Source: Acidobacteriaceae bacterium
GTDB lineage: Bacteria; Acidobacteriota; Terriglobia; Terriglobales; Acidobacteriaceae
Direction: 5' to 3'
Assembly (NCBI GenBank): GCA_025462885.1
Contig: JAOAPN010000013.1
Location: 62,001 to 126,000, forward strand
Length of the DNA: 64,000 nucleotides
Shown here: in pieces, positions 9,155-57,627 of the stretch
Layout: each line of letters begins with the position of its first letter
Position numbering within the stretch: position 1 is the stretch's first letter
Translations under genes and position numbers: made by a program
The notes under the pieces: generated by a model
Seen by the model: the letters and a program-made list of their open reading frames with translations, nothing else
Told to the model about the DNA's origin: nothing
Database searches by the model: none

Positions 9155-9195
9155 ATTTGGAAGGGCATACCTTCAGGTATGCCAAACACTTTTTG
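9155..9195 (+). repeat. Solo hairpin of the composite repeat family; likely terminator
   Basis: TTTGGAAG followed by GGCATACC (9164-9171), loop TTCA, GGTATGCC (9176-9183), then AAACACTTTTT. This is the left hairpin of the composite repeat, with C-G pairs changed to T-A on both arms relative to the copies at 18369 and 47104. It follows the exporter gene and probably serves as its terminator. Confidence 0.7.
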
Positions 9196-18340: not shown

Positions 18341-18566
18341 GGGCAGTATCGGCATATACCTTTGGAAGGGCACACCTTCAGGTGTGCCAAATGCTTCGTA
18401 TTTTGATTTATTTCTTTTGTCGGTTTGCCATAGGCAAACCGACAAAAGAAACAGAGGATAGAGGAGAACGCTTCTTTCGGCACGGCTGAAGCCGTGCCCT
18501 TCCAAATATCCTTCCGAATTCAACCACACCGGCGAAGATGTAACGCCTGTATATGTCGATATGGCG
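18341..18566. repeat. Full-length composite hairpin repeat (copy 1)
   Basis: About 226 bp. Left end GGCAGTATCGGCATATACC; left hairpin at 18369-18388 (GGCACACC/GGTGTGCC, loop TTCA); central hairpin with a 19-bp perfect stem at 18411-18429 and 18433-18451, loop ATA; right hairpin at 18479-18498 (GGCACGGC/GCCGTGCC, loop TGAA). The right end reads, on the minus strand, GCCATATCGACATATAC. Terminal sequences are therefore inverted copies, both for the outer CGACATATACC and for the inner TTTGGAAGGGCAC. It carries no gene and ends 14 bases before the GTG of the methyltransferase gene. Confidence 0.85.
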
Positions 18567-37837: not shown

Positions 37838-37968
37838 CTCAGCCGAAACATGTTGAGCCGACCCGATGCGGTATTGATTACAAACCACTTACCAGTTGAA
37901 CCAAAAATGAGCCACAAAAGGCCATCCCTGCATTGCGAGGAACTTCCCATCTAGGGTCGTCTAGTCCA

Positions 37969-40422
37969 ATGCGATTGTCCGCCCTGTTCCTCCTGGCCCT
38001 CCCTCTGTCTCTACTGGCGCAAACTCCGTCGGCATCCCAGCCCCTGCCGAACGGCCTGCAGGTCACAGCATCCGGCGTCACCGTCCAGATCACCGCTCTC
38101 CGCGACGACGTGCTTCGCGTCCGCGCGACCCATACCGCGACCCTGCCGGAAGACGCCTCATGGGCCGTGCTCCCCGCCGCCCGCACCGCCTCGGTTCCGG
38201 TCGTCGCAGAGCCGAACGGCTTCCACACCGCCGCCCTCAAGGTCTCGCTGGACTCCACCCTCCGCCTCATCGTCTCCGATCTCGCCGGGCGCGTCCTCCA
38301 GCAGGACGCCGAACCCATCACCTGGCACAACACCGGCTTCCGCATCGCCAAGCAGAAAGACCCCGCCGACCACTTCTTCGGTCTGGGTGACAAGCCCGGC
38401 CCCCTCGACCGCGCTGGCCAGTCCTTCACCATGTGGAACACCGACTCCTTCGGCTTCCAGGAATCCACCGACCCCATCTATAAGTCCATTCCCTTCTTCA
38501 TTAACCTCCGTTCCGGCCGAGCCCTCGGCGTGCTGTTCGACAACACCTGGCGCACCTACTTCGACTTCGGCCACCAGGACCCGAACCAGTACACCTTCAC
38601 CGCGCCGAACGGACCCGCCGACTACTACCTGCTCTACGGACCCACTCCAAAACAGGTGGTCGAAACCTACGCCTGGCTCACCGGCCCGACCCCGCTGCCC
38701 CCGCTCTGGTCGCTCGGCTTCCAGCAGTCCCGCTACAGCTATACCCCCGAGACCAAGGTCATCGAGATCGCCGACCGCCTCCGCGCCGACCACATTCCCG
38801 CCGACGCCATCTACCTCGATATCGACTACCAGGAGAAGAACCGGCCCTTCACCGTCGACGCCGTCACCTTCCCCCACTTCTCCCAGATGGTGCAGGACCT
38901 GGCAAAGAAGAACTTCCACACCATCGTCATCACCGACCTGCACATTGCGAAGCTCCCCAACGCGGGCTACGCACCCTATGACTCGGGCACCGCCGGAGAT
39001 CACTTCGTAAAGAATCCCGACGGCAGCACCTACGTTGGTCCCGTCTGGCCCGGCCCCTCCGTCTTCCCCGACTTCACCCGCAAGGCCTCCCGCGACTGGT
39101 GGGGCACGCTCTATAAAGGCTTCGCAGGACAGGGCGTTGCCGGTTTCTGGAACGATATGAACGAGCCGGCCGTCTTCACCTACCCTACCAAGACCATGCC
39201 GGATAACATCCAGCACCGCATCGACGAGCCCGGCTTCCAGCCCCGCACCGCAACGCATCTGGAGATTCACAACATCTTCGGCATGGAGAACTCGCGCGGC
39301 ACCTACGAGGGCCTGCTTGCACTCCAACCCAACCAGCGGCCCTTCGTCCTGACCCGCGCCAGCTACGCCGGTGGCCAGCGCTACGCCGCCACCTGGACCG
39401 GCGACAACAGCTCCACCTGGAACCACCTGCGCATGACCGTCCCCCAGATCGTCAACCTCGGCCTGAGCGGCTTCGCCATGTCCGGAGCCGATGTCGGAGG
39501 CTTTGCCGGATCACCCTCCCCTGACCTCCTCACCAAGTGGCTGGAAGTCGCCGCCTTCCAGCCCATCGACCGCGACCACGCCGCCAAAGGCACCCGCGAC
39601 CACGAACCCTGGGTCGACGGCCCCGCGCATCTCGCCATTCGCCGCCGCTACATCGAAGAGCGCTACCGCCTGATGCCCTACCTCTACACCGTCACCGAAG
39701 AGATGTCCCGCACCGGCCTCCCCATCGACCGGCCCCTGTTCCTGGAGTTCCCCAACGCCACCACCGACGGCCACCCTCTGGATCTCGATGCCGGCAGCGA
39801 GTTCCTCTTCGGCCCCAGCCTGCTGATCGCTCCCAATCCCTCCCCGGAAGAGGTCGCTCCCTACGAGGTCCATCTTCCTCCCGGCGTCTGGTACGACTAC
39901 TGGACCGGCGATAAGCTCGACCGCCGCACCCAGACCGGCGTCCGCGACCTAGAGATTCGCGATGCAGTAGTGCCCAACAAGCCCATCCTCGTAACCCCCA
40001 CCCTCGCCGACCTGCCCGTCTACGTCCGCGAAGGCACCATCCTGCCCATCGCTCCACTCACCCAGAGCACCAGCGAGAAACCCGCTGGCCCGCTGACTCT
40101 ACGGGTCTACTCCGGACAGAACTGCGCTGGCGATATCTATCAGGACGACGGCATCTCCTTCGCCTTCCGCTCCGCATCCTTCTACCGCGTCCACCTCACC
40201 TGCTCGGAGAATCCGGACGGCACCCTCGCCCTCCATATCGGCGCTCCCGAAGGCACCTTCAAACCGTGGTGGAACCAGCTTCGCATCGAGGCCTACGGCT
40301 GGACTCCGAAGTCGAAACAGGCCACCACCAACCAGGGCACGCGGCCGCTCCAGCAATCCGGCAAGGCGTGGGCTCTGACGATTCCTGCCACCTCCGCCGC
40401 TACCGACCTTACCCTCCGCTAG
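37969..40422 (+). CDS. Secreted GH31 alpha-glucosidase
   Basis: 817 residues, signal peptide at 1-19 (MRLSALFLLALPLSLLAQ). The N-terminal galactose-mutarotase-like domain is followed by the catalytic barrel: nucleophile Asp396 in FWNDMNEPAVF, acid/base Asp508 in SGADVGGFAG, and the substrate region YSYTPETKVIEIADRLR. It removes glucose from the non-reducing ends of maltooligosaccharides. ATG 37969 puts the signal peptide at the terminus; the frame is open to 37933. Last gene of the glucan cluster on the plus strand. The stop TAG is the first base triplet of a repeat element. Confidence 0.94.
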   Translation: MRLSALFLLALPLSLLAQTPSASQPLPNGLQVTASGVTVQITALRDDVLRVRATHTATLPEDASWAVLPAARTASVPVVAEPNGFHTAALKVSLDSTLRLIVSDLAGRVLQQDAEPITWHNTGFRIAKQKDPADHFFGLGDKPGPLDRAGQSFTMWNTDSFGFQESTDPIYKSIPFFINLRSGRALGVLFDNTWRTYFDFGHQDPNQYTFTAPNGPADYYLLYGPTPKQVVETYAWLTGPTPLPPLWSLGFQQSRYSYTPETKVIEIADRLRADHIPADAIYLDIDYQEKNRPFTVDAVTFPHFSQMVQDLAKKNFHTIVITDLHIAKLPNAGYAPYDSGTAGDHFVKNPDGSTYVGPVWPGPSVFPDFTRKASRDWWGTLYKGFAGQGVAGFWNDMNEPAVFTYPTKTMPDNIQHRIDEPGFQPRTATHLEIHNIFGMENSRGTYEGLLALQPNQRPFVLTRASYAGGQRYAATWTGDNSSTWNHLRMTVPQIVNLGLSGFAMSGADVGGFAGSPSPDLLTKWLEVAAFQPIDRDHAAKGTRDHEPWVDGPAHLAIRRRYIEERYRLMPYLYTVTEEMSRTGLPIDRPLFLEFPNATTDGHPLDLDAGSEFLFGPSLLIAPNPSPEEVAPYEVHLPPGVWYDYWTGDKLDRRTQTGVRDLEIRDAVVPNKPILVTPTLADLPVYVREGTILPIAPLTQSTSEKPAGPLTLRVYSGQNCAGDIYQDDGISFAFRSASFYRVHLTCSENPDGTLALHIGAPEGTFKPWWNQLRIEAYGWTPKSKQATTNQGTRPLQQSGKAWALTIPATSAATDLTLR

Positions 40423-40636
40423 GCAGTATCGACATAAAGCCCTTTGGAAGGGCACGCCTTCAAGTGTGCTAACCGTCACATTTTTTTGATGTGTTTCTTA
40501 TGTCGGTTTGCCATAGGCAAACCGACATAAGAAACACAGGATAGAGGGGGACGCTTCTTTCGGCACGGCTGAAGCCGTGCCATTCCAAATATCCGTCCGA
40601 ATTCAATCAACCTGGCGAAGATGCAATATCGATACA
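40420..40636. repeat. Composite hairpin repeat (copy 2)
   Basis: Begins on the GH31 stop codon: TAGGCAGTATCGACATA. The left hairpin is degraded (GGCACGCC/AGTGTGCT); the central hairpin is a 23-bp perfect stem at 40490-40512 and 40516-40538, loop ATA; right hairpin GGCACGGC/GCCGTGCC with GCCATTCC at its end. It tails off at GGCGAAGATGCAATATCGAT, short of the full right end. Confidence 0.85.
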
Positions 40637-40918
40637 GCCTCAACCTCCCGCAATCAAATCCCAGCGATACATACGCCCAAATCTACCTCTAATACGCCTT
40701 AAGTACTGGCCCGTAGCACCTTCGGGTGATTCTTTCCCACTCTGATACTGCTACGTTTTCTTACGAGTCAAGCTACGGATCAACTTGCCCGCAACACCTG
40801 AACGATGGGGGTTGCAGGCCCCGCAGGCGAGACCACCAGCGCCGGTGCAGAATGGTCCGTGTCATTTGGAAAAGACCCTCCCAGCCGACGGCTGAGTATT
40901 CGTAAGAGGCGTCAATCC
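40637..40918. other. Leader region of the giant surface protein gene
   Basis: About 280 bases without a gene. The last 100 bases can fold: GGGGGTT (about 40808-40814) with GACCCTC (about 40876-40882) around GACC/GGTC and CACC/GGTG stems, then CAGCC-GAC-GGCTG before the AAGAGG ribosome site. No riboswitch class was recognised. Confidence 0.3.
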
Positions 40919-43900
40919 ATGCAGCACAGCACGTCGCAACTTCCTTTTCGCACCCTCCCTGGTCTCTCTCTACTGCGCTCCTTCGGTGCTTTTTGCGCCG
41001 CAGCAATGCTGGCTCTCGGAGCCATGACCAGCGCCAGCGCCCAGGGCACCGTGCATTTTCCGGCCCTCGCGGCAGGTGTCACGACCTCCGCCTCGCAGCA
41101 GGTCACCGTCACCGCAACGACTGGCGGCACGATCTCCGGCATCAAGGTTCTTACCCAGGGCGCTCCCAACGCCGATTTTCGTGACATCGGCGGCGGCACC
41201 TGTGCCCTAGCCATAGGACAGACTTACTTCGCCGGCCAGAGCTGCACGGTCAACGTCGTGATGCAGCCTACCTATCCCGGCACCCACACTGGAGCAGTCA
41301 TCCTTCAGGGAGCAGCCGGATCGCTCGGCACCCAGTTCGTCGACGGTCTCAGCCACGGTCCCCTCGCTCTGATCGTCCCCGGAGTCATCACCACCGTCGC
41401 CGGGACCGGCGCCTGGATCTATCGCCAGGATGGCGTACCCGCCTACGACGCCCCCATCTTCCTGCCCATGGGCGTCGCTGTCGATGCCGCCGGCAACCTG
41501 TTCCTCTCGGACTCCAACAACAACCGCGTTCGCCGCGTCGATGGAGCCAGCGGCCTCATCAGCACCGTAGCCGGAACCGGCGACCCCGGTTTCGCCGGAG
41601 ACGGCAGCCTCGCCACCAGCGCCAAGGTCAGCGCTCCCTCCGCCCTCGCGCTCGACGGAGCCGGTAACCTCTACTTCGCGGATACCGGAAACAACGTCAT
41701 CCGTCGCATCGACGGCATCACCGGCATCATCACCACCGTCGCCGGAACCGGCACGCAGCAGGGCTACACCGGCGACAACGGCCCCGCCATCGCAGCCAAG
41801 CTCAACCAGCCCTACGGCCTCACCTTCGACGCCAACCAGAACCTCTACATCGCCGACACGGGAAACAACGTTCTCCGCAAGGTCGTTCTCGCCTCCGGCA
41901 CCATTACCACCGTCGCCGGAACCGGCGTCCCGGCGTATCTCGGAGACGGCGGCCCGGCCGTCGCAGCGCAGCTCAATACCCCCTGGGGCCTCAGCTTCAC
42001 CCCGGACGGCAGCATCTACATCGCCGACCTGAACAATAACGTCATCCGTAGAATTTCCTCCTCCAACATCATCACCACCGTGGTCGGCACCGGCACGCGC
42101 GGCTTCAGCGGAGATAAGGGTGCAGCATCAACCGCTCTGCTCAACAGTCCTGCCGCCGTCACCGTCGACGTCGCCGGCAACATCTACGTCGCAGACTCCG
42201 GCAACAACCGTGTCCGCAAGGTCAACATCTCCAGCGGTATTATCACCACCATCGCCGGCACCGTCGGCGACTCCAACGCGGGCGATGGCGGCGTCTCCAC
42301 CGGAGCCAGCCTCTACGGTCCTTACGCCCTGCTGCTCGACGGCCCGGGAAATCTCTACATCAGCGATATGTTCCACAATCGCGTGAAACGCATCAGCAGC
42401 AACGCGGTAAGCCTCTTCTACCCGGACATGCGCGTCAATCGCATCTCCACGACGATCTATCCGGAGGCCCTCGAAAACGACGGCAACGCCGATCTCAGCC
42501 TGACCACCCTCAGCCTCGACAGCAACTCCGCCCTCGACGCCGCGACCACCACCTGCTTCTCGGGCGCGGTCGTCACGTCTGCCAACACCTGCACCCTGGG
42601 CGTCGAGTTCGCTCCCACCACGGTCGGCAGCCCTATCAGCGGTTCCATCACCCTGCGGACCGATGCTGCAAACTCCCCCGGCGTAATCAAGCTCTCCGGC
42701 ACCGTTCTCAGCGTCGACCCCACCAGTGTGACCCTTACCTCGAGCCTTAACCCCGCGGGTTTTGGCACACCGATCACGCTTACTGCCCTGGTCTCCACCA
42801 CCGGCACCAGCGTTACCGGCACCATGAAGTTCCTCGACGGCACGGCCCTGATCGGCACCGCGACTCTTGATGCTACCGGGTCCGCCTCGACGACGCTGTC
42901 CACCCTGGCCCTCGGCTCTCACACCATCACCGCTGTCTACTCCGGCGACGCAACCAACGCCGCGAGCACTTCGACGGCACTGGTCCAGGTGGTTAGGCAG
43001 CCCACCACCCTCGCGCTCGTGTCCAGCACGAATCCTTCGACGGTCTCGGCCCCGGTCACCTTCACCGCAACCCTCTCCGGTGGAATTATATCTCCGGTCG
43101 GGAACGTCACTTTCTCCGATGGAACGACGATGTTGCAAAGGATTTCACTGACCACTGCAGGGACCGCAAGCATGACTCTCGCCACGCTGACTCCCGGCGC
43201 GCATACGATCACGGCTCTCTACTCTGGCGACACCAACAACATGACCAGCCAAACGGTGCTCACGCAGACCGTCGCGCAGGCGTCGACCCTCACCACCGTC
43301 CCGACCAGTAGTAATCCCTCGGTCACGGTCGGAACCACGATCACCTTCTCCTCCACCGTCACCAGCATCGGCGGGCCTCTCCCCACCGGCTCCGTCACGT
43401 TCAAAGATGGTGCAACCATCCTCGGAGCCGGAAACCTCGACCCCGCCGGGAATGCTACCTTCTCCACCTCCACTCTCGCTCCCGGATCGCATCCCATCAC
43501 CGCCACCTACGCGGGCGATACCAACAGCGTCGCCAGCACCTCCACCGCACTGAACCAGACCGTCGTTCAGGTCGGTACTTCGACCGTCCTCGTCCCCAAC
43601 CCGAATCCTGCCAACGCCGGTGCCACCCTCACTCTTACCGCGACGGTCTCGGCTGCGGGAGGTTCGACGGCCGGAGGCATCCTGAGCGGACGCATCACCT
43701 TTCAGGACGGAGCCACTCCCATCGGCAGCGCCGATATTGCTCCCAACGGAGTCGCTACCCTCAGCATCAAGACCCTGACCGTCGGGGCGCACATGCTCAC
43801 GGCCGTCTACTCCGGCAATACCAACTACGCCACCAGCACCTCGACCGGGTTCACCGAAACCGTACAACAGTCGACCACCACCACCACGCTGGCCTCCAGC

Positions 43901-46405
43901 TCAAACCCCGCCATCGCCGGTAAATCCGTCACCCTCACCGCCACCGTGGTCTCCGTCGGCGGCATCCCAACCGGAACCGTCACCTTCCGTGACGGAACCA
44001 TCCCCCTCGGCCAGCCAGTCCAGCTCAACGCACAAGGCGTCGCCACCCTCTCGACGACATCGCTCAACGTCGCCAACCACACCATCGTCGCCACCTACAA
44101 CGCCGACGCCAACAACTCCACCAGCGACTCCGCCCCATTCGCCCAGAACATCCAGATCGCCACAACCTCCCTCCAACTCGCTGGATCGTCGAACCCAGCA
44201 GTCGTCGGAGTCGCCGTAACTTTCACCGCCACTCTGAGCGGCAATGGCGGCCAGCCCACCGGCTCCATCGTCTTCTCTGACGGAGCCACGGTTCTCGGAT
44301 CACGTCCCATCAACGGCGCCGCACCGGTCTCGTTCACCCTCTCCATCCTCGCCGTCGGAAGCCACCCCGTCACCGCCTCCTACGCAGGCGACGCAGGCAA
44401 CTCGGGTAGCAACTCCACCACCATCAACCAGGAAATCCAGCAGGCCGCCACTACCATCAGCCTGCTTCCCAGCCAAAGCCCCACCCAGCTCGGCCAGGCC
44501 GTCACCTTTACCTCTGCCGTCTCTAATCCGAGCACCACCATCGTGGCAACCGGATCCGTCACCTTCCAGGAGGGCAGCACCGTCCTCGGAACCGCTGCGC
44601 TGAATGGCGCTGGCTCCACCACCTTCACCACCTCCACCCTGAGCCTGGGCAAACACACCATCACCGCCACCTACTCGGGCGATGCGAACCATGTCGCAAG
44701 CACCTCGACAGCGATCGTCCAGCAGGTGCTGCAGGCAACGGCTATCACCCTTACCTCCAACGGCACCCCTTCCATCGCCGGTAAGAACGTGATCTTCACC
44801 GCCAACCTTCCCGGCATCCCGGGCACAGTGCCCACCGGCTCCGTCACCTTCAAGGATGGCACTACGGTCCTCGGCGTCGGCACTCTCGATGGCAGTGGCT
44901 CGGCCTTCTTCAGCACCACCGCATTGCCCCTCGGACTCCACTCCATTACCGCGCTCTACTCCGGCGACAATAACTTCCAGACCGTCACCTCGGGCGTTTT
45001 CAACCAGGCCGTCCAGATCGCCCAGACCAACATCGTTCTTACCTCCAGTGCCAACCCTGCCGTCTACGGTGCGCCGCTGAGCTTTAGCGCATCCATCACC
45101 GGAACCGGCGGGCCTATCACCGGAACCGTCACCTTCCAGGACGGCACCGCCGTCATCGGCAGCGCGACGCTCAACGCAGGCGTAGCGGTCTTCACGATCT
45201 CTACCCTTAGCCCCGCTGGCCACCCCATCAGCGCTCTCTACTCCGGAGACAGCAACAACTCGCCGAACATCTCAGCAGTCCTTCAGCAGCAGGTGCGCCA
45301 GGTCACGAAGACCGTTCTGGCCTCCAGTGCTAACCCGGCCCTGACCCTCGACCCCATTACCCTCACCGCATCCATCACCAACGCAGGAGCGGCCGCTGCC
45401 ACCGGCTCCGTTACCTTCACCGAAGGCGCTTCGGTGCTCGGCACCGTCGCCCTCGACACCAACGGCAACGCCGCTCTGACCATCCCGTCCCTGGCGGCTG
45501 GACAGCACCTCATCGTCGCAACCTACGCCGGTGACGTCGCCAACATCCCCAGCGCCTCGACCGCCTTCGCCCAGGTCGTCAACCTCCGCCCCACCACCAC
45601 GGTCCTGACCGCAACCTCAACCTCCGTCGCGGACACCCAGCAGGTCACCCTGATCTCAGTGGTTCGCTTCAACGGTCCCACGCCTCCCACAGGAACGATC
45701 ACGTTCCTGAACGGCACCAAAGTCCTGGGTGCCAGCCCCGTCGATAAGACCGGCGTCGCTGCCCTGACCATCATCATCAACACCCTGACTGCGAACCTCA
45801 CCGCAAGCTATAGCGGCGACATAAACTACACGCCTTCCGCCTCCGCCGTCACTCCGATCACCAGCGGTCCTCCAACGCAGTTCACCCTGGATATCAGCAA
45901 CTCCGCCGTCCAGCTCAAGAGCAAGGAGCACGTGACCGTCAACGTAGTCCTCAGCTCCATCAAGGGCTTCTCTGACACCCTGGTGTTGGGATGCCTCGGC
46001 CTACCCTACGCCGCGACCTGCACCTTCTCCAGCGATCAGCTCAAGCTCGCCGGCGACACGGCCCAGACCATCAAACTCGTCATCGACACCGGCTCGCCCC
46101 TCACCTCGGGAAGCGTCGGTGCCGGTACCGCAAGCGTCCAGACCAAGTCTTCCTCCACGGTTGCTCTTAGCTTCCTGCCCATCGGCGCGATCCTGGGAAT
46201 CTTCCTCTATCGCGGACGGCGACGGGTCTCCATCGGCGGTCTGCTCCTCGTCCTCTGCCTGCTCGGATCGCTCGGCATCACCGGTTGCGGCAGCATCGAT
46301 ATCAACGGCACCCCCGCCGGAACCTACACCTTCAAGATCACGGCAGCAGGGGTTGGATCCGGGGCCACACAGTACAAGGACATTACGCTCACGGTGGTCC
46401 AGTAA
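40919..46405 (+). CDS. Giant exported NHL-repeat and Ig-repeat surface protein
   Basis: 1828 residues. Signal peptide at about 20-52. Residues about 180-490 hold six NHL repeats, each like GNLYFADTGNNVIRRID with intervening TVAGTGxxGFxGDGG segments: a six-bladed propeller. Residues about 600-1645 hold eleven Ig-like (Big_3_5) domains of about 90-95 residues, each with the TVTFxDG ... LGxGTAxLxxxGxAxxxxxxLxxGxHxITAxYSGD pattern. The C-terminus has two hydrophobic helices (about 1746-1766 and 1767-1788), an LGITGC lipobox-like Cys at 1790, and a last beta segment ending LTVVQ. Adhesion or carbohydrate binding outside the cell is likely. AAGAGG nine bases before the ATG. It overlaps the next gene by TAATG. 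Confidence 0.88.
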   Translation: MQHSTSQLPFRTLPGLSLLRSFGAFCAAAMLALGAMTSASAQGTVHFPALAAGVTTSASQQVTVTATTGGTISGIKVLTQGAPNADFRDIGGGTCALAIGQTYFAGQSCTVNVVMQPTYPGTHTGAVILQGAAGSLGTQFVDGLSHGPLALIVPGVITTVAGTGAWIYRQDGVPAYDAPIFLPMGVAVDAAGNLFLSDSNNNRVRRVDGASGLISTVAGTGDPGFAGDGSLATSAKVSAPSALALDGAGNLYFADTGNNVIRRIDGITGIITTVAGTGTQQGYTGDNGPAIAAKLNQPYGLTFDANQNLYIADTGNNVLRKVVLASGTITTVAGTGVPAYLGDGGPAVAAQLNTPWGLSFTPDGSIYIADLNNNVIRRISSSNIITTVVGTGTRGFSGDKGAASTALLNSPAAVTVDVAGNIYVADSGNNRVRKVNISSGIITTIAGTVGDSNAGDGGVSTGASLYGPYALLLDGPGNLYISDMFHNRVKRISSNAVSLFYPDMRVNRISTTIYPEALENDGNADLSLTTLSLDSNSALDAATTTCFSGAVVTSANTCTLGVEFAPTTVGSPISGSITLRTDAANSPGVIKLSGTVLSVDPTSVTLTSSLNPAGFGTPITLTALVSTTGTSVTGTMKFLDGTALIGTATLDATGSASTTLSTLALGSHTITAVYSGDATNAASTSTALVQVVRQPTTLALVSSTNPSTVSAPVTFTATLSGGIISPVGNVTFSDGTTMLQRISLTTAGTASMTLATLTPGAHTITALYSGDTNNMTSQTVLTQTVAQASTLTTVPTSSNPSVTVGTTITFSSTVTSIGGPLPTGSVTFKDGATILGAGNLDPAGNATFSTSTLAPGSHPITATYAGDTNSVASTSTALNQTVVQVGTSTVLVPNPNPANAGATLTLTATVSAAGGSTAGGILSGRITFQDGATPIGSADIAPNGVATLSIKTLTVGAHMLTAVYSGNTNYATSTSTGFTETVQQSTTTTTLASSSNPAIAGKSVTLTATVVSVGGIPTGTVTFRDGTIPLGQPVQLNAQGVATLSTTSLNVANHTIVATYNADANNSTSDSAPFAQNIQIATTSLQLAGSSNPAVVGVAVTFTATLSGNGGQPTGSIVFSDGATVLGSRPINGAAPVSFTLSILAVGSHPVTASYAGDAGNSGSNSTTINQEIQQAATTISLLPSQSPTQLGQAVTFTSAVSNPSTTIVATGSVTFQEGSTVLGTAALNGAGSTTFTTSTLSLGKHTITATYSGDANHVASTSTAIVQQVLQATAITLTSNGTPSIAGKNVIFTANLPGIPGTVPTGSVTFKDGTTVLGVGTLDGSGSAFFSTTALPLGLHSITALYSGDNNFQTVTSGVFNQAVQIAQTNIVLTSSANPAVYGAPLSFSASITGTGGPITGTVTFQDGTAVIGSATLNAGVAVFTISTLSPAGHPISALYSGDSNNSPNISAVLQQQVRQVTKTVLASSANPALTLDPITLTASITNAGAAAATGSVTFTEGASVLGTVALDTNGNAALTIPSLAAGQHLIVATYAGDVANIPSASTAFAQVVNLRPTTTVLTATSTSVADTQQVTLISVVRFNGPTPPTGTITFLNGTKVLGASPVDKTGVAALTIIINTLTANLTASYSGDINYTPSASAVTPITSGPPTQFTLDISNSAVQLKSKEHVTVNVVLSSIKGFSDTLVLGCLGLPYAATCTFSSDQLKLAGDTAQTIKLVIDTGSPLTSGSVGAGTASVQTKSSSTVALSFLPIGAILGIFLYRGRRRVSIGGLLLVLCLLGSLGITGCGSIDINGTPAGTYTFKITAAGVGSGATQYKDITLTVVQ

Positions 46406-47055: not shown

Positions 47056-47197
47056 GCAATACCAACCAATACCGGCGTGATTAAGTTCGGCGGATATTGG
47101 AAGGGCACACCTTCAGGTGTGCCGAAAGAAGCCTCCCCTCCACCCTTTGTTTCTTTTATCGGTTTGCCATGGGCAAACCGATAAAAGAAACAAATCA
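47053..47197. repeat. Composite hairpin repeat (copy 3, partial, opposite orientation)
   Basis: Begins at the TAA stop of the barrel gene (TAAGCAATACCAACC). Hairpin GGCACACC/GGTGTGCC at 47104-47123; central hairpin of 20 bp at 47149-47168 and 47172-47191, loop ATG. It runs up to the 3' end of the PQQ-protein gene, which stops at 47203 on the other strand, so it may act as a two-way terminator. Confidence 0.8.
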
Positions 47198-54490: not shown

Positions 54491-54654
54491 GTCTCGTCTT
54501 ACCCGACGCAACCGTCACCCCGCGAACGTACACACCCGTCCCAGCAAACAAGTCTCGCTCTGCCCCGACACGATAGTCTTCACGCGGAAGGCAAGCATCT
54601 AGGCGCGCCAGACACGCCTCGCTCTACCCCGACACAACAATCACCCCACGGAAT
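54491..54654. repeat. Imperfect tandem triplet of about 62 bp
   Basis: Three degenerate copies start near 54491, 54552 and 54615, each with TCTCG(T/C)CT, (A/G)CCCGACRC and CACSCSRCGGAA. The period is 61-63 bases. Function unknown. Confidence 0.65.
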
Positions 54655-54674
54655 GGCACACCTTCAGGTGTGCC
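54655..54674. repeat. Solo hairpin of the composite repeat family
   Basis: GGCACACC-TTCA-GGTGTGCC, then AGAAAAAAG. Identical arms to those of copy 1 and copy 3 of the composite repeat. Probably a terminator-like hairpin between the SPFH and TetR genes. Confidence 0.75.
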
Positions 54675-56577: not shown

Positions 56578-56682
56578 ATCAGAAACTACGGAAGTAGGTC
56601 TAGCTATTGTTAGACCCACTTCAATACTATGAAGCTCGAAAAGTTTTACTAGTGCCTTGAGTCTAAAGTTCGTTCCATAAAC

Positions 56683-56845
56683 TCAGGGCCAACGGCCCGT
56701 CACATACCAGCCTAGGCCGAAGGCTAGGTCAGATAAATCGCATAAACAGAGGGCTGAAAGCCCGGCCCATAATTCCTTCAATAACTTCAGGCTCAGAACA
56801 CCAGGCGAAGATGTAACCCCGGTATAGGTCGATATCGCCTAAGAT
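56683..56845. repeat. Hairpin-rich repeat block with composite-repeat right end
   Basis: Contains GGGCC-AAC-GGCCC, CCTAGGCCGAAGGCTAGG and GGGCTGAAAGCCC hairpins that are not part of the main family, then GGCGAAGATGTAACCCC with GGTATAGGTCGATATCGCC at the end, which is the right-end sequence of the composite element. So it is a relative with another interior. Confidence 0.6.
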
Positions 56846-56918
56846 CGCGCGAGCTACCGTAAGATCGTTCTAAGCGCCGGATAAGTCAGTCAAACTTCAT
56901 AAGTAAGTCGTGGTGAAG

Positions 56919-57377
56919 ATGAATATAAAGACATGGGAACTAATCAGTATCGTCCTCTCAGCATTCGTCGCGGAAATGTTCCACGGACCATGGATTGCAC
57001 TAAGCAGGTCCATGAAGACCTTCCCTCCGGACATCTTTCTCGCCCTCGTGGATCGAATGAACCGCAACATGGCTCCCGTCATGACGGTCCTGATGCCAGC
57101 GACCTTACTCTCCGTCATCCCAGTCCTGCTCCTGTCCTGGCACGGGTATCCAAAGACCTTCTATCTCAACCTCGCAGCACTGGTCTTATTTATCGTCGCT
57201 TTGATTGTGACAGTTTTAGTTGAAGTTCCAATCGTCGAGCAGATCGTGACATGGAAGGTCTCTTCACTTCCGTCTAACTGGCAGCAGCTTCGCGATCGCT
57301 GGACAAAGTTCCACGTCATCCGTGTAGCCACCGGCCTCGCCAGTCTTATTCTGCTCGTGATCGCAGCTATCTTCTAG
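56919..57377 (+). CDS. DUF1772-like integral membrane protein
   Basis: 152 residues with four likely membrane helices (about 7-24, 53-73, 84-104 and 131-150). The conserved start WELISIVLSAFVAEMFHGPW and later NMAPVMTVLMPATLLS, and HVIRVATGLASLI, are typical of DUF1772-like proteins. Some relatives are anthrone oxygenases. ATG 56919 is chosen; no strong ribosome site is visible. Its TAG stop is the first triplet of a repeat element. Function unknown. Confidence 0.75.
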   Translation: MNIKTWELISIVLSAFVAEMFHGPWIALSRSMKTFPPDIFLALVDRMNRNMAPVMTVLMPATLLSVIPVLLLSWHGYPKTFYLNLAALVLFIVALIVTVLVEVPIVEQIVTWKVSSLPSNWQQLRDRWTKFHVIRVATGLASLILLVIAAIF

Positions 57378-57475
57378 GCAGAATCGACATATACCGGCGT
57401 CGCATCTTCGCCGGGGTGGTTGAATTCGGAGGATATTTGGAAGGGCACGGCTTCCAGCCGTGCCGAAAGAAGCGT
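57375..57475. repeat. Composite hairpin repeat (copy 4, right half, inverted)
   Basis: TAGGCAGAATCGACATATACCGG starts on the DUF1772 stop codon; CATCTTCGCCGGGGTGGTT, GAATTCGGAGGATATTTGG and the hairpin GGCACGGC/GCCGTGCC (57444-57464) are the inverted right end of copy 1, ending GAAAGAAGCG. The left half and the central hairpin are missing. Confidence 0.8.
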
Positions 57476-57583: not shown

Positions 57584-57626
57584 GTGACGCGAGGGTGTTC
57601 TATCGAACAGAATACCCTCGCGTCAC
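57584..57626 (-). terminator. Long hairpin terminator of the aldo/keto reductase gene
   Basis: GTGACGCGAGGGT (57584-57596) pairs perfectly over 13 bp with ACCCTCGCGTCAC (57614-57626) around a 17-base loop. It directly follows the stop codon at 57628-57630 on the minus strand; the T-rich tail (TGTTTGTTTC) is weak. Confidence 0.65.
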
Positions 57627-57627
57627 G

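Follow-up and report, generated by a model that had tools for sequence, protein, structure and literature searches.

The hairpins scattered over this stretch of DNA probably belong to a nested mobile element, in which a REP-hairpin-REP unit is carried inside an IS5-type MITE shell and template switching keeps the hairpin arms matched. The inner part would be a REPIN-like unit of two inverted REPs, each with a GGAAG foot and an 8-bp GGCA...TGCC hairpin, placed around a long triloop hairpin; the REPs are probably cognate to a RAYT encoded in the same genome, a single-strand HUH transposase. The outer shell would be moved by a DDE transposase of the IS5 family (NF033580) into YTAR sites with duplication of TA, often at TAG stop codons, where the first G of the element itself would restore the stop. 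We propose that the REP-hairpin-REP unit joined the shell and then multiplied along with it. The paired changes in its stems would arise largely through template switching, in which replication recopies one arm from its partner; loop flips and mirrored indels would result as well.

The window, by which we mean the whole 64-kb stretch analyzed here (G000:C6:62001-126000), comes from a soil acidobacterium with a genome of 5.26 Mb in 16 contigs, called G000 below. Named relatives of one protein of the window belong mostly to Granulicella, Edaphobacter, and other Acidobacteriota, with Granulicella sp. dw_53 as the best (77% identity), and the host genus is probably Edaphobacter/Granulicella. Hairpins are present at all six places that an earlier sequence-only reading of the window had named (Table 1), and the family turned out to be larger than that reading had noted, with at least 40 places in the genome. 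Its proposal that copies 1 to 4 share three hairpins fits copies 1 and 2, the only complete REP-central stem-REP units, but copy 3 is a half unit that has no TIR at up to 5 mismatches, and copy 4 lacks the central stem. The central stem lengths of 19 and 23 bp given for copies 1 and 2 are correct, while that of copy 3 is 23 bp and not 20. The paired arm changes described for this stem (GTCGG/CCGAC versus ATCGG/CCGAT and TTTTG versus TTATG) are present, as is the variant left hairpin in the solo copy at 9159. The TIR is GGCAGTATCGACATATA, whereas TTTGGAAGGGCAC, offered as a terminal inverted repeat, is not one and instead holds the foot of the REP hairpin. The suggestion of a nonautonomous element of either the REP or the MITE kind named the right kinds, although they are not alternatives here, since the REP hairpins are nested in a MITE shell.

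Table 1. Positions of the element copies, their parts, and related sequences in the 64-kb window
Feature	Position	Strand	Details
Copy 1, left TIR (GGCAGTATCGGCATATA)	18342..18358	+	1 mismatch to consensus
Copy 1, left REP hairpin, GGAAG foot	18364..18388	+	Pattern match, covariation set
Copy 1, central 19-bp triloop hairpin, loop ATA	18411..18451	.	Pattern match, fold, covariation set
Copy 1, right REP hairpin, inverted	18479..18503	-	Pattern match, covariation set
Copy 1, right arm of the MITE shell	18504..18549	+	Alignment; also found in short elements L083 and L084
Copy 1, right TIR	18550..18566	-	3 mismatches
Copy 2, whole	40422..40640	+	Left TIR 40422-40438; right end decayed
Copy 2, REPs	40446-40470 and 40562-40586		
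Copy 2, 23-bp central stem	40490-40536		
Copy 3, half unit	47056..47195	-	Decayed end and arm; REP 47099-47123; central stem 47146-47192
Copy 4	57377..57464	-	TIR 57377-57393; arm 57398-57427; REP 57439-57464
Solo REP hairpin (GGCATACC/GGTATGCC)	9159..9183	+	Followed by left-type linker
Solo REP hairpin, GGAAT foot	54650..54674	+	
Remnant of a MITE with the same shell and other palindromes	56680..56839	+	Right TIR 56823-56839, 3 mismatches

Three further features of the window were recorded. The MITE remnant at 56680-56839 contains the inner palindromes GGGCCAACGGCCC, CCTAGGCCGAAGGCTAGG, and GGGCTGAAAGCCC, followed by a right arm and TIR as in the copies. By eye, a long hairpin (GTGACGCGAGGGT...ACCCTCGCGTCAC), possibly a terminator, lies at about 57584-57627, between copy 4 and a minus-strand aldo/keto reductase gene. 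Copy 2 is adjoined by an ORF of 1866 amino acids (40805-46405) with NHL and eleven Big_3_5 Ig-like stretches.

A BLAST search of the genome with the 226-bp element gave 79 matches, which reduce to at least 40 places because the palindromic element matches both strands; this is a lower bound, as 40 of 96 candidates were scored. The 40 places were taken with their flanks and aligned. The consensus starts with TA, the TIR GGCAGTATCGACATATAG, and a short left arm, and continues with the left REP hairpin (GGAAG.GGCACACC.TTCA.GGTGTGCC), a linker with TTTTGATTTG, the central hairpin (TTTCTTTTGTCGGTTTGCC.TAT.GGCAAACCGACAAAAGAAA), a purine-rich linker, and the inverted REP hairpin (GGCACGGC.TGAA.GCCGTGCC.CTTCC), ending in a right arm of about 45 nt, the second TIR, and TA. 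Patterns derived for the parts are strongly enriched in the genome, with 96 matches for the TIR when 3 mismatches are allowed (its reversed pattern gave 6), 103 for the REP (2 for the control), and 89 for the central arm (0 for the control). Both TIRs are recognizable at up to 5 mismatches in 20 of the 40 places, and these copies are short (200 to 233 bp) and noncoding; both halves, i.e., the inverted REP doublet with its foldable spacer, parse in 33 of the 40. Among relatives, the composite element gave BLAST matches in at least 47 of the 60 genomes of the genus, and among the matches listed it was mostly the REP part that aligned; no best match of near-full length was found in these 60 genomes outside G000 (best E value elsewhere, 1e-14, among the matches listed); copy numbers there are lower bounds, with 13 candidates scored per genome.

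Some loci depart from this plan. At L418 (381-421) of G000 the central hairpin stands alone, with no recognized REP or TIR nearby. At L084 (514-802), the REP palindrome of a short MITE is occupied by a foreign element of ∼175 bp with CAGGYTGCGGAAAAAGTC ends and, by eye, an apparent 4-bp TGAA duplication, and a shell copy at L087 (701-815) has an unusual left arm holding an extra palindrome (ACCTATACC...GTATAGGT).

By its sequence, the shell that forms the outer layer is that of an IS5-type MITE, with 17-bp TIRs, TA flanks, and YTAR sites. The TIRs of the long copies also bound short elements of 97 to 113 bp, in two of which (L082 and L083) the REP pair is replaced by a single, almost perfect palindrome footed at both ends (GGAAGGG...CCCTTCC, exactly or nearly). 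In a sister species (G035), the same TIRs, with 0 to 1 mismatch per 17-bp end, enclose two 831-bp elements whose two overlapping frames match PF13340, PF01609, and NF033580 (IS5 family). A transposase of the G035 type had no match in G000, so that no autonomous partner was found in the host itself; the autonomous IS is present in relatives. We examined the ends of 30 fetched loci encoding relatives of the G035 transposase. TIR-like ends occurred at L269 of G052 (one end, 1 mismatch) and L270 of G031 (2 and 3 mismatches), and also at L292 of G005 (one end, 3 mismatches) and L271 of G027 (4 and 4, where 4 mismatches are near chance because shuffled loci reach 5 to 7 and several unlinked loci show 4). 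The ends of L286 in G030 have 3 and 2 mismatches, but the transposase match there covers only 26 residues. At most of the other loci no shell-like ends were seen. A 1.6-kb TIR pair at L087 might have been an autonomous element, but this was rejected because two separate remnants there flank an ORF that, by eye, is amidohydrolase-like. Separately, the 2.6-Mb genome of G021 has 89 TIR matches, a large expansion of the shell TIR family.

The TIRs shared with the 831-bp IS, together with the presence of both TIRs at 20 of the 40 places, would also suit a simple IS5-derived MITE whose inner hairpins are decayed IS sequence with no role for REPs or a RAYT. However, no GGCA hairpin lies inside either G035 copy of the IS, and the REP is found next to cognate RAYTs of other species and in units free of TIRs, which makes this explanation very improbable.

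The insertion sites were compared in 40 element pairs, made up of the 20 long copies of G000, 7 other elements of that genome, and 13 from other species. TA stands at both sides in 20 of the 40, at the sites CTAG (9 pairs), CTAA (7), TTAG (2), TTAA (1), and TTAC (1), so the TA is preceded by C or T and mostly followed by G or A. Duplication of 4-bp CTAG was rejected, since the two flanks differ beyond TA in several pairs (e.g., L018 and L026), and a TA duplication therefore fits better. No empty site was found when the window was compared with L193, L219, L170, and L172, none of which aligned across any copy. At 41 of the 71 ends with enough flank, a TAG lies at the junction, and 21 of these 41 terminate an ORF at least 100 codons long. 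The background for these loci, junctions included, is 160 such stops among 1292 TAGs and 35 among 159 CTAGs. The window holds two such cases, as the opening TAG of copy 2 is the stop of the ORF at 37933-40422, and copy 4 begins at the stop codon of the ORF at 56910-57377.

The shell is also found with other contents. Repeats of the CATCCTGAGCG type, or a relative of these, are found in TIR-bounded elements of 171 to 241 bp in G048, G052, G018, G017, and G008, as well as in one shell of G000 itself (L091). The elements of G037 contain GCGGGC and CCTGGGG palindromes. Minimal elements, 80 and 88 bp long, were seen in G048 and G031. A wider reading, possible though on balance doubtful, is that of a doubly mobile element with ends for two unrelated transposases, those for a single-strand RAYT in its interior and those for a double-strand IS5 enzyme at its outer edges. 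In this genus, shells with these TIRs would repeatedly take up different palindromic repeats and disperse them, in many cases to stop codons, and the hairpins would be kept matched by template switching in replication.

For the inner layer, the PF01797 profile had two matches in G000. One of them, the 145-amino-acid ORF of L010 (37.3 bits; cutoff, 23), is a REP-associated tyrosine transposase by NF047646 (111.9 bits; cutoff, 80; E = 2.3e-32), and its gene is flanked on both sides by inverted GGAAG-footed hairpins of the REP family of the element; the other, L009, does not lie between such hairpins. The sequence-only reading had pointed to a REP-associated transposase with matching ends. Such a RAYT is thus present, but the TIRs belong to an unrelated DDE transposase. 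To compare RAYTs and hairpins across the genus, we fetched 30 RAYT loci from 62 genomes and scanned them uniformly for hairpins within 350 bp of the gene. With a split at 54% identity to the RAYT of G000, picked after the data had been seen, a footed hairpin of the GGCA/GGTA type stands beside 17 of the 18 more similar RAYTs (at least 54%) and beside none of the 12 less similar ones, two of which (L314 and L325) have a different hairpin, CGTGGGGC. The feet in the 17 are GGAAG (4), GGAAC (1), and TTAAG (12), and the canonical GT[AG]G foot was not encountered, the foot being GGAAG in G000 itself or TTAAG. The matching of REPs to RAYTs is imperfect, as three genomes that are 74 to 85% complete (G037, G007, and G019) bear GGAAG or GAAAG REPs, yet the best RAYT found in each is mismatched, being accompanied by a TTAAG hairpin in one case (L305) and by no hairpin of this type in the others (L318 and L316). 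Going by sequence, the GGAAG REPs are probably cognate to the RAYT of their own genome.

The presence of this RAYT with REPs of the same family, as well as of units in G000 with no recognizable TIR, raises the question of whether the whole is a REPIN moved by the RAYT alone, with the TIRs as hitchhiking flank. That is quite unlikely, given that the alignment of the copies stops at the TIRs in a TA context and that the short forms, which have no central hairpin, share these ends. Both observations indicate that the unit spreading here runs from TIR to TIR.

Between these layers, the combination of a REP with a long triloop hairpin also occurs outside the shell. A covariance model of the REP, linker, and hairpin reached E ≤0.01 in 50 of 62 genomes, with the caveat that calibration was short, the E values are rough, and weak matches may represent the REP alone. 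We fetched 40 of the highest-ranking matches listed (from G019, G007, G056, G037, G021, G017, G050, and G045), of which 35 parse as REP, linker, and hairpin with a score of at least 10, matches of this model being preselected for a hairpin; none of these 40 loci from other species has a TIR at up to 4 mismatches. The stems differ wholly between species, for example, GTTTCTTCGTTCGCC in G019, TCGCGTTCTCTCGATCGC in G037, and TTTCTGCCCGCTGGATTGC in G021, and G019 has full REP-hairpin-REP units without TIRs (L360, L362, and L364). Within G000, five loci (L419, L420, L422, L429, and L434) have a REP and central arm with neither a TIR (up to 5 mismatches) nor the right arm, and two more (L427 and L430) lack a TIR and have weak right-arm matches at the expected place; as the latter two illustrate, the TIR-free units of this genome may be decayed shell copies. 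A difference in stem type between shell-borne and TIR-free units of G000 was considered and not upheld, because stems of the G007 type (CCGGTTCGCC) occur in copies both with a TIR (L042, L090, and L423) and without one (L434), and stem type thus does not tell which came first. That the inner unit may be the older one is suggested by the TIR-free units of other species only.

A less biased frequency for the companion hairpin was obtained from REPs chosen by BLAST to the REP alone, where 34 REPs parsed (29 of 39 places). A long second hairpin accompanies 8 of these 34; among control windows the figure is 17 of 760. Relaxing the foot requirement lets 8 of the 10 dropped places be parsed, none of them with a long hairpin (one having just 23 nt of sequence), and 2 stay unparsed. 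The eight long-hairpin REPs come from G037 (5 of its 7 GGAAG REPs and 0 of its 5 TTAAG REPs), G021 (two), and G017 (one), so in this sample GGAAG REPs of some species often have a companion hairpin, which in other species did not appear. The TTAAG REPs of G037 are mostly followed by a short GGGGC-ttta-GCCCC hairpin; the G037 loci compared include L399 to L401 and L404 to L406.

Covariation was assessed in the 33 copies with both halves, 7 of the 40 having been dropped because their halves did not parse. Overall, 96.6% of the cells are paired, a measure favored by the fact that the structure was taken from one of the 33 copies. Changes on both sides affect 13 of 37 pairs, namely, 8 of 19 in the central stem, 4 of 9 in the right REP, and, weakly, 1 of 9 in the left REP. 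In total, 49 cells are changed on both sides, compared with 11.5 (standard deviation, 2.5) in shuffled data, where none of 500 shuffles reached this value, and with 1 to 7 in slid controls. This bears out the earlier observation that pairing is conserved and sequence is not. Compared with the consensus arm, the 33 central stems hold 20 mirrored differences, including 5 indels (one T deletion found in four copies and a G deletion in one), and about as many one-sided differences (19, 5 of them indels), which affect 13 of the 33 stems. Four of the five mirrored indels are identical, and a single G>A change accounts for five mirrored substitutions, which makes it probable that some of these differences were inherited. 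The central loop is TAT in 15 of 33 copies and its reverse complement, ATA, in 9, and for 7 of these 9 the nearest neighbor outside the hairpin, judged by distance, is a TAT copy that is 7 to 22 differences away.

Template switching between inverted repeats leaves arm homogenization, multibase compensation, and spacer inversion as its signatures, according to the available portions of PMC8604942 and PMC8794818. Since the mirrored indels and loop inversions match these signatures, we prefer arm-to-arm copying of DNA as the explanation, and regard the matched changes in these sequences as probably due in the main to one arm serving as the template for its partner, and not to a working RNA. A second force may be selection that keeps the strand foldable.

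Compensated changes are also what a functional structured RNA would show, with hairpins selected as a 3′ untranslated region (3′-UTR) stabilizer, terminator, or regulator, an option left open by the sequence-only reading. The stable fold of copy 1 (z = -10.8 as RNA and -9.1 as DNA) is in favor of this, and the TAG junctions that are ORF stops (21 of 41) place hairpins in 3′ UTRs. Yet this stop codon bias is also expected from a CTAG target combined with selection against insertions within genes, and the genes next to the window copies come from unrelated families (LCM methyltransferase, GH31, PQQ enzyme, and anthrone oxygenase). Furthermore, no Rfam family matched within the 64-kb window at gathering scores, the stem sequence is wholly different between species, and the one-sided differences in 13 of 33 central stems, the mirrored indels, and the loop flips speak against selection on an RNA, which leaves this reading unlikely. 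An intrinsic terminator in particular was rejected, as no T-run was seen by eye 3′ of the central stem in copies 1 to 3. We thus retain the nested mobile element, with arms matched by template switching, as the best explanation.

Taken singly, REPINs, RAYTs, IS5-type MITEs, and template switching have all been described before, and it is the nesting that looks new. The inverted REP doublet, the footed hairpin, and a RAYT beside its cognate REPs resemble the REPIN/RAYT systems as described in the accessible text of PMC3116915 and PMC6006769. That compensatory changes are common in REPINs has already been stated there (PMC3116915), "double foot" REPs formed by central deletion of an inverted dimer have been described (PMC3116915, PMC6006769), and noncanonical feet such as CnGA are on record for other classes (PMC6006769). 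Compared with these systems, the foot here is GGAAG (TTAAG in relatives) in place of GT[AG]G, a long triloop hairpin forms the spacer, and the unit lies inside a MITE shell. The nearest precedents are in PMC3733652, which, in the portion available, reports GTAG-1 REP units of Pseudomonas adjoining unrelated stem-loops ("hundreds of these bizarre structures") and a distinct RAYT-like group, TIRYT, in the acidobacteria T. saanensis, K. versatilis, A. capsulatum, and G. mallensis, and which describes no IS5-type shell in that portion. TIRs, YTAR target, and TA flanks are as in the IS5 element (NF033580) and the MITEs made from its ends, but the interior here is palindromic cargo instead of a transposase remnant, and no autonomous copy was found in the host. 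Arm homogenization, compensation, and spacer inversion are shared with template-switch hairpins, which the available parts of PMC8794818 and PMC8604942 report for RNA genes and yeast coding DNA, whereas the present case is a multicopy mobile element of a bacterium. We found no description of a REPIN inside an IS5-type MITE in the open-license literature, represented mostly by titles and the beginnings of abstracts.

If the nested arrangement is correct, it shows how repeats whose spread was believed to require their RAYT can gain copies by borrowing the shell of a DDE transposon. The 33 aligned natural copies from one genome display compensated changes, mirrored indels, and loop flips side by side, which cautions against taking covariation in multicopy hairpins as sufficient proof of a functional RNA, and the same set would serve as a test bed for the rate at which stems are repaired by template switching.
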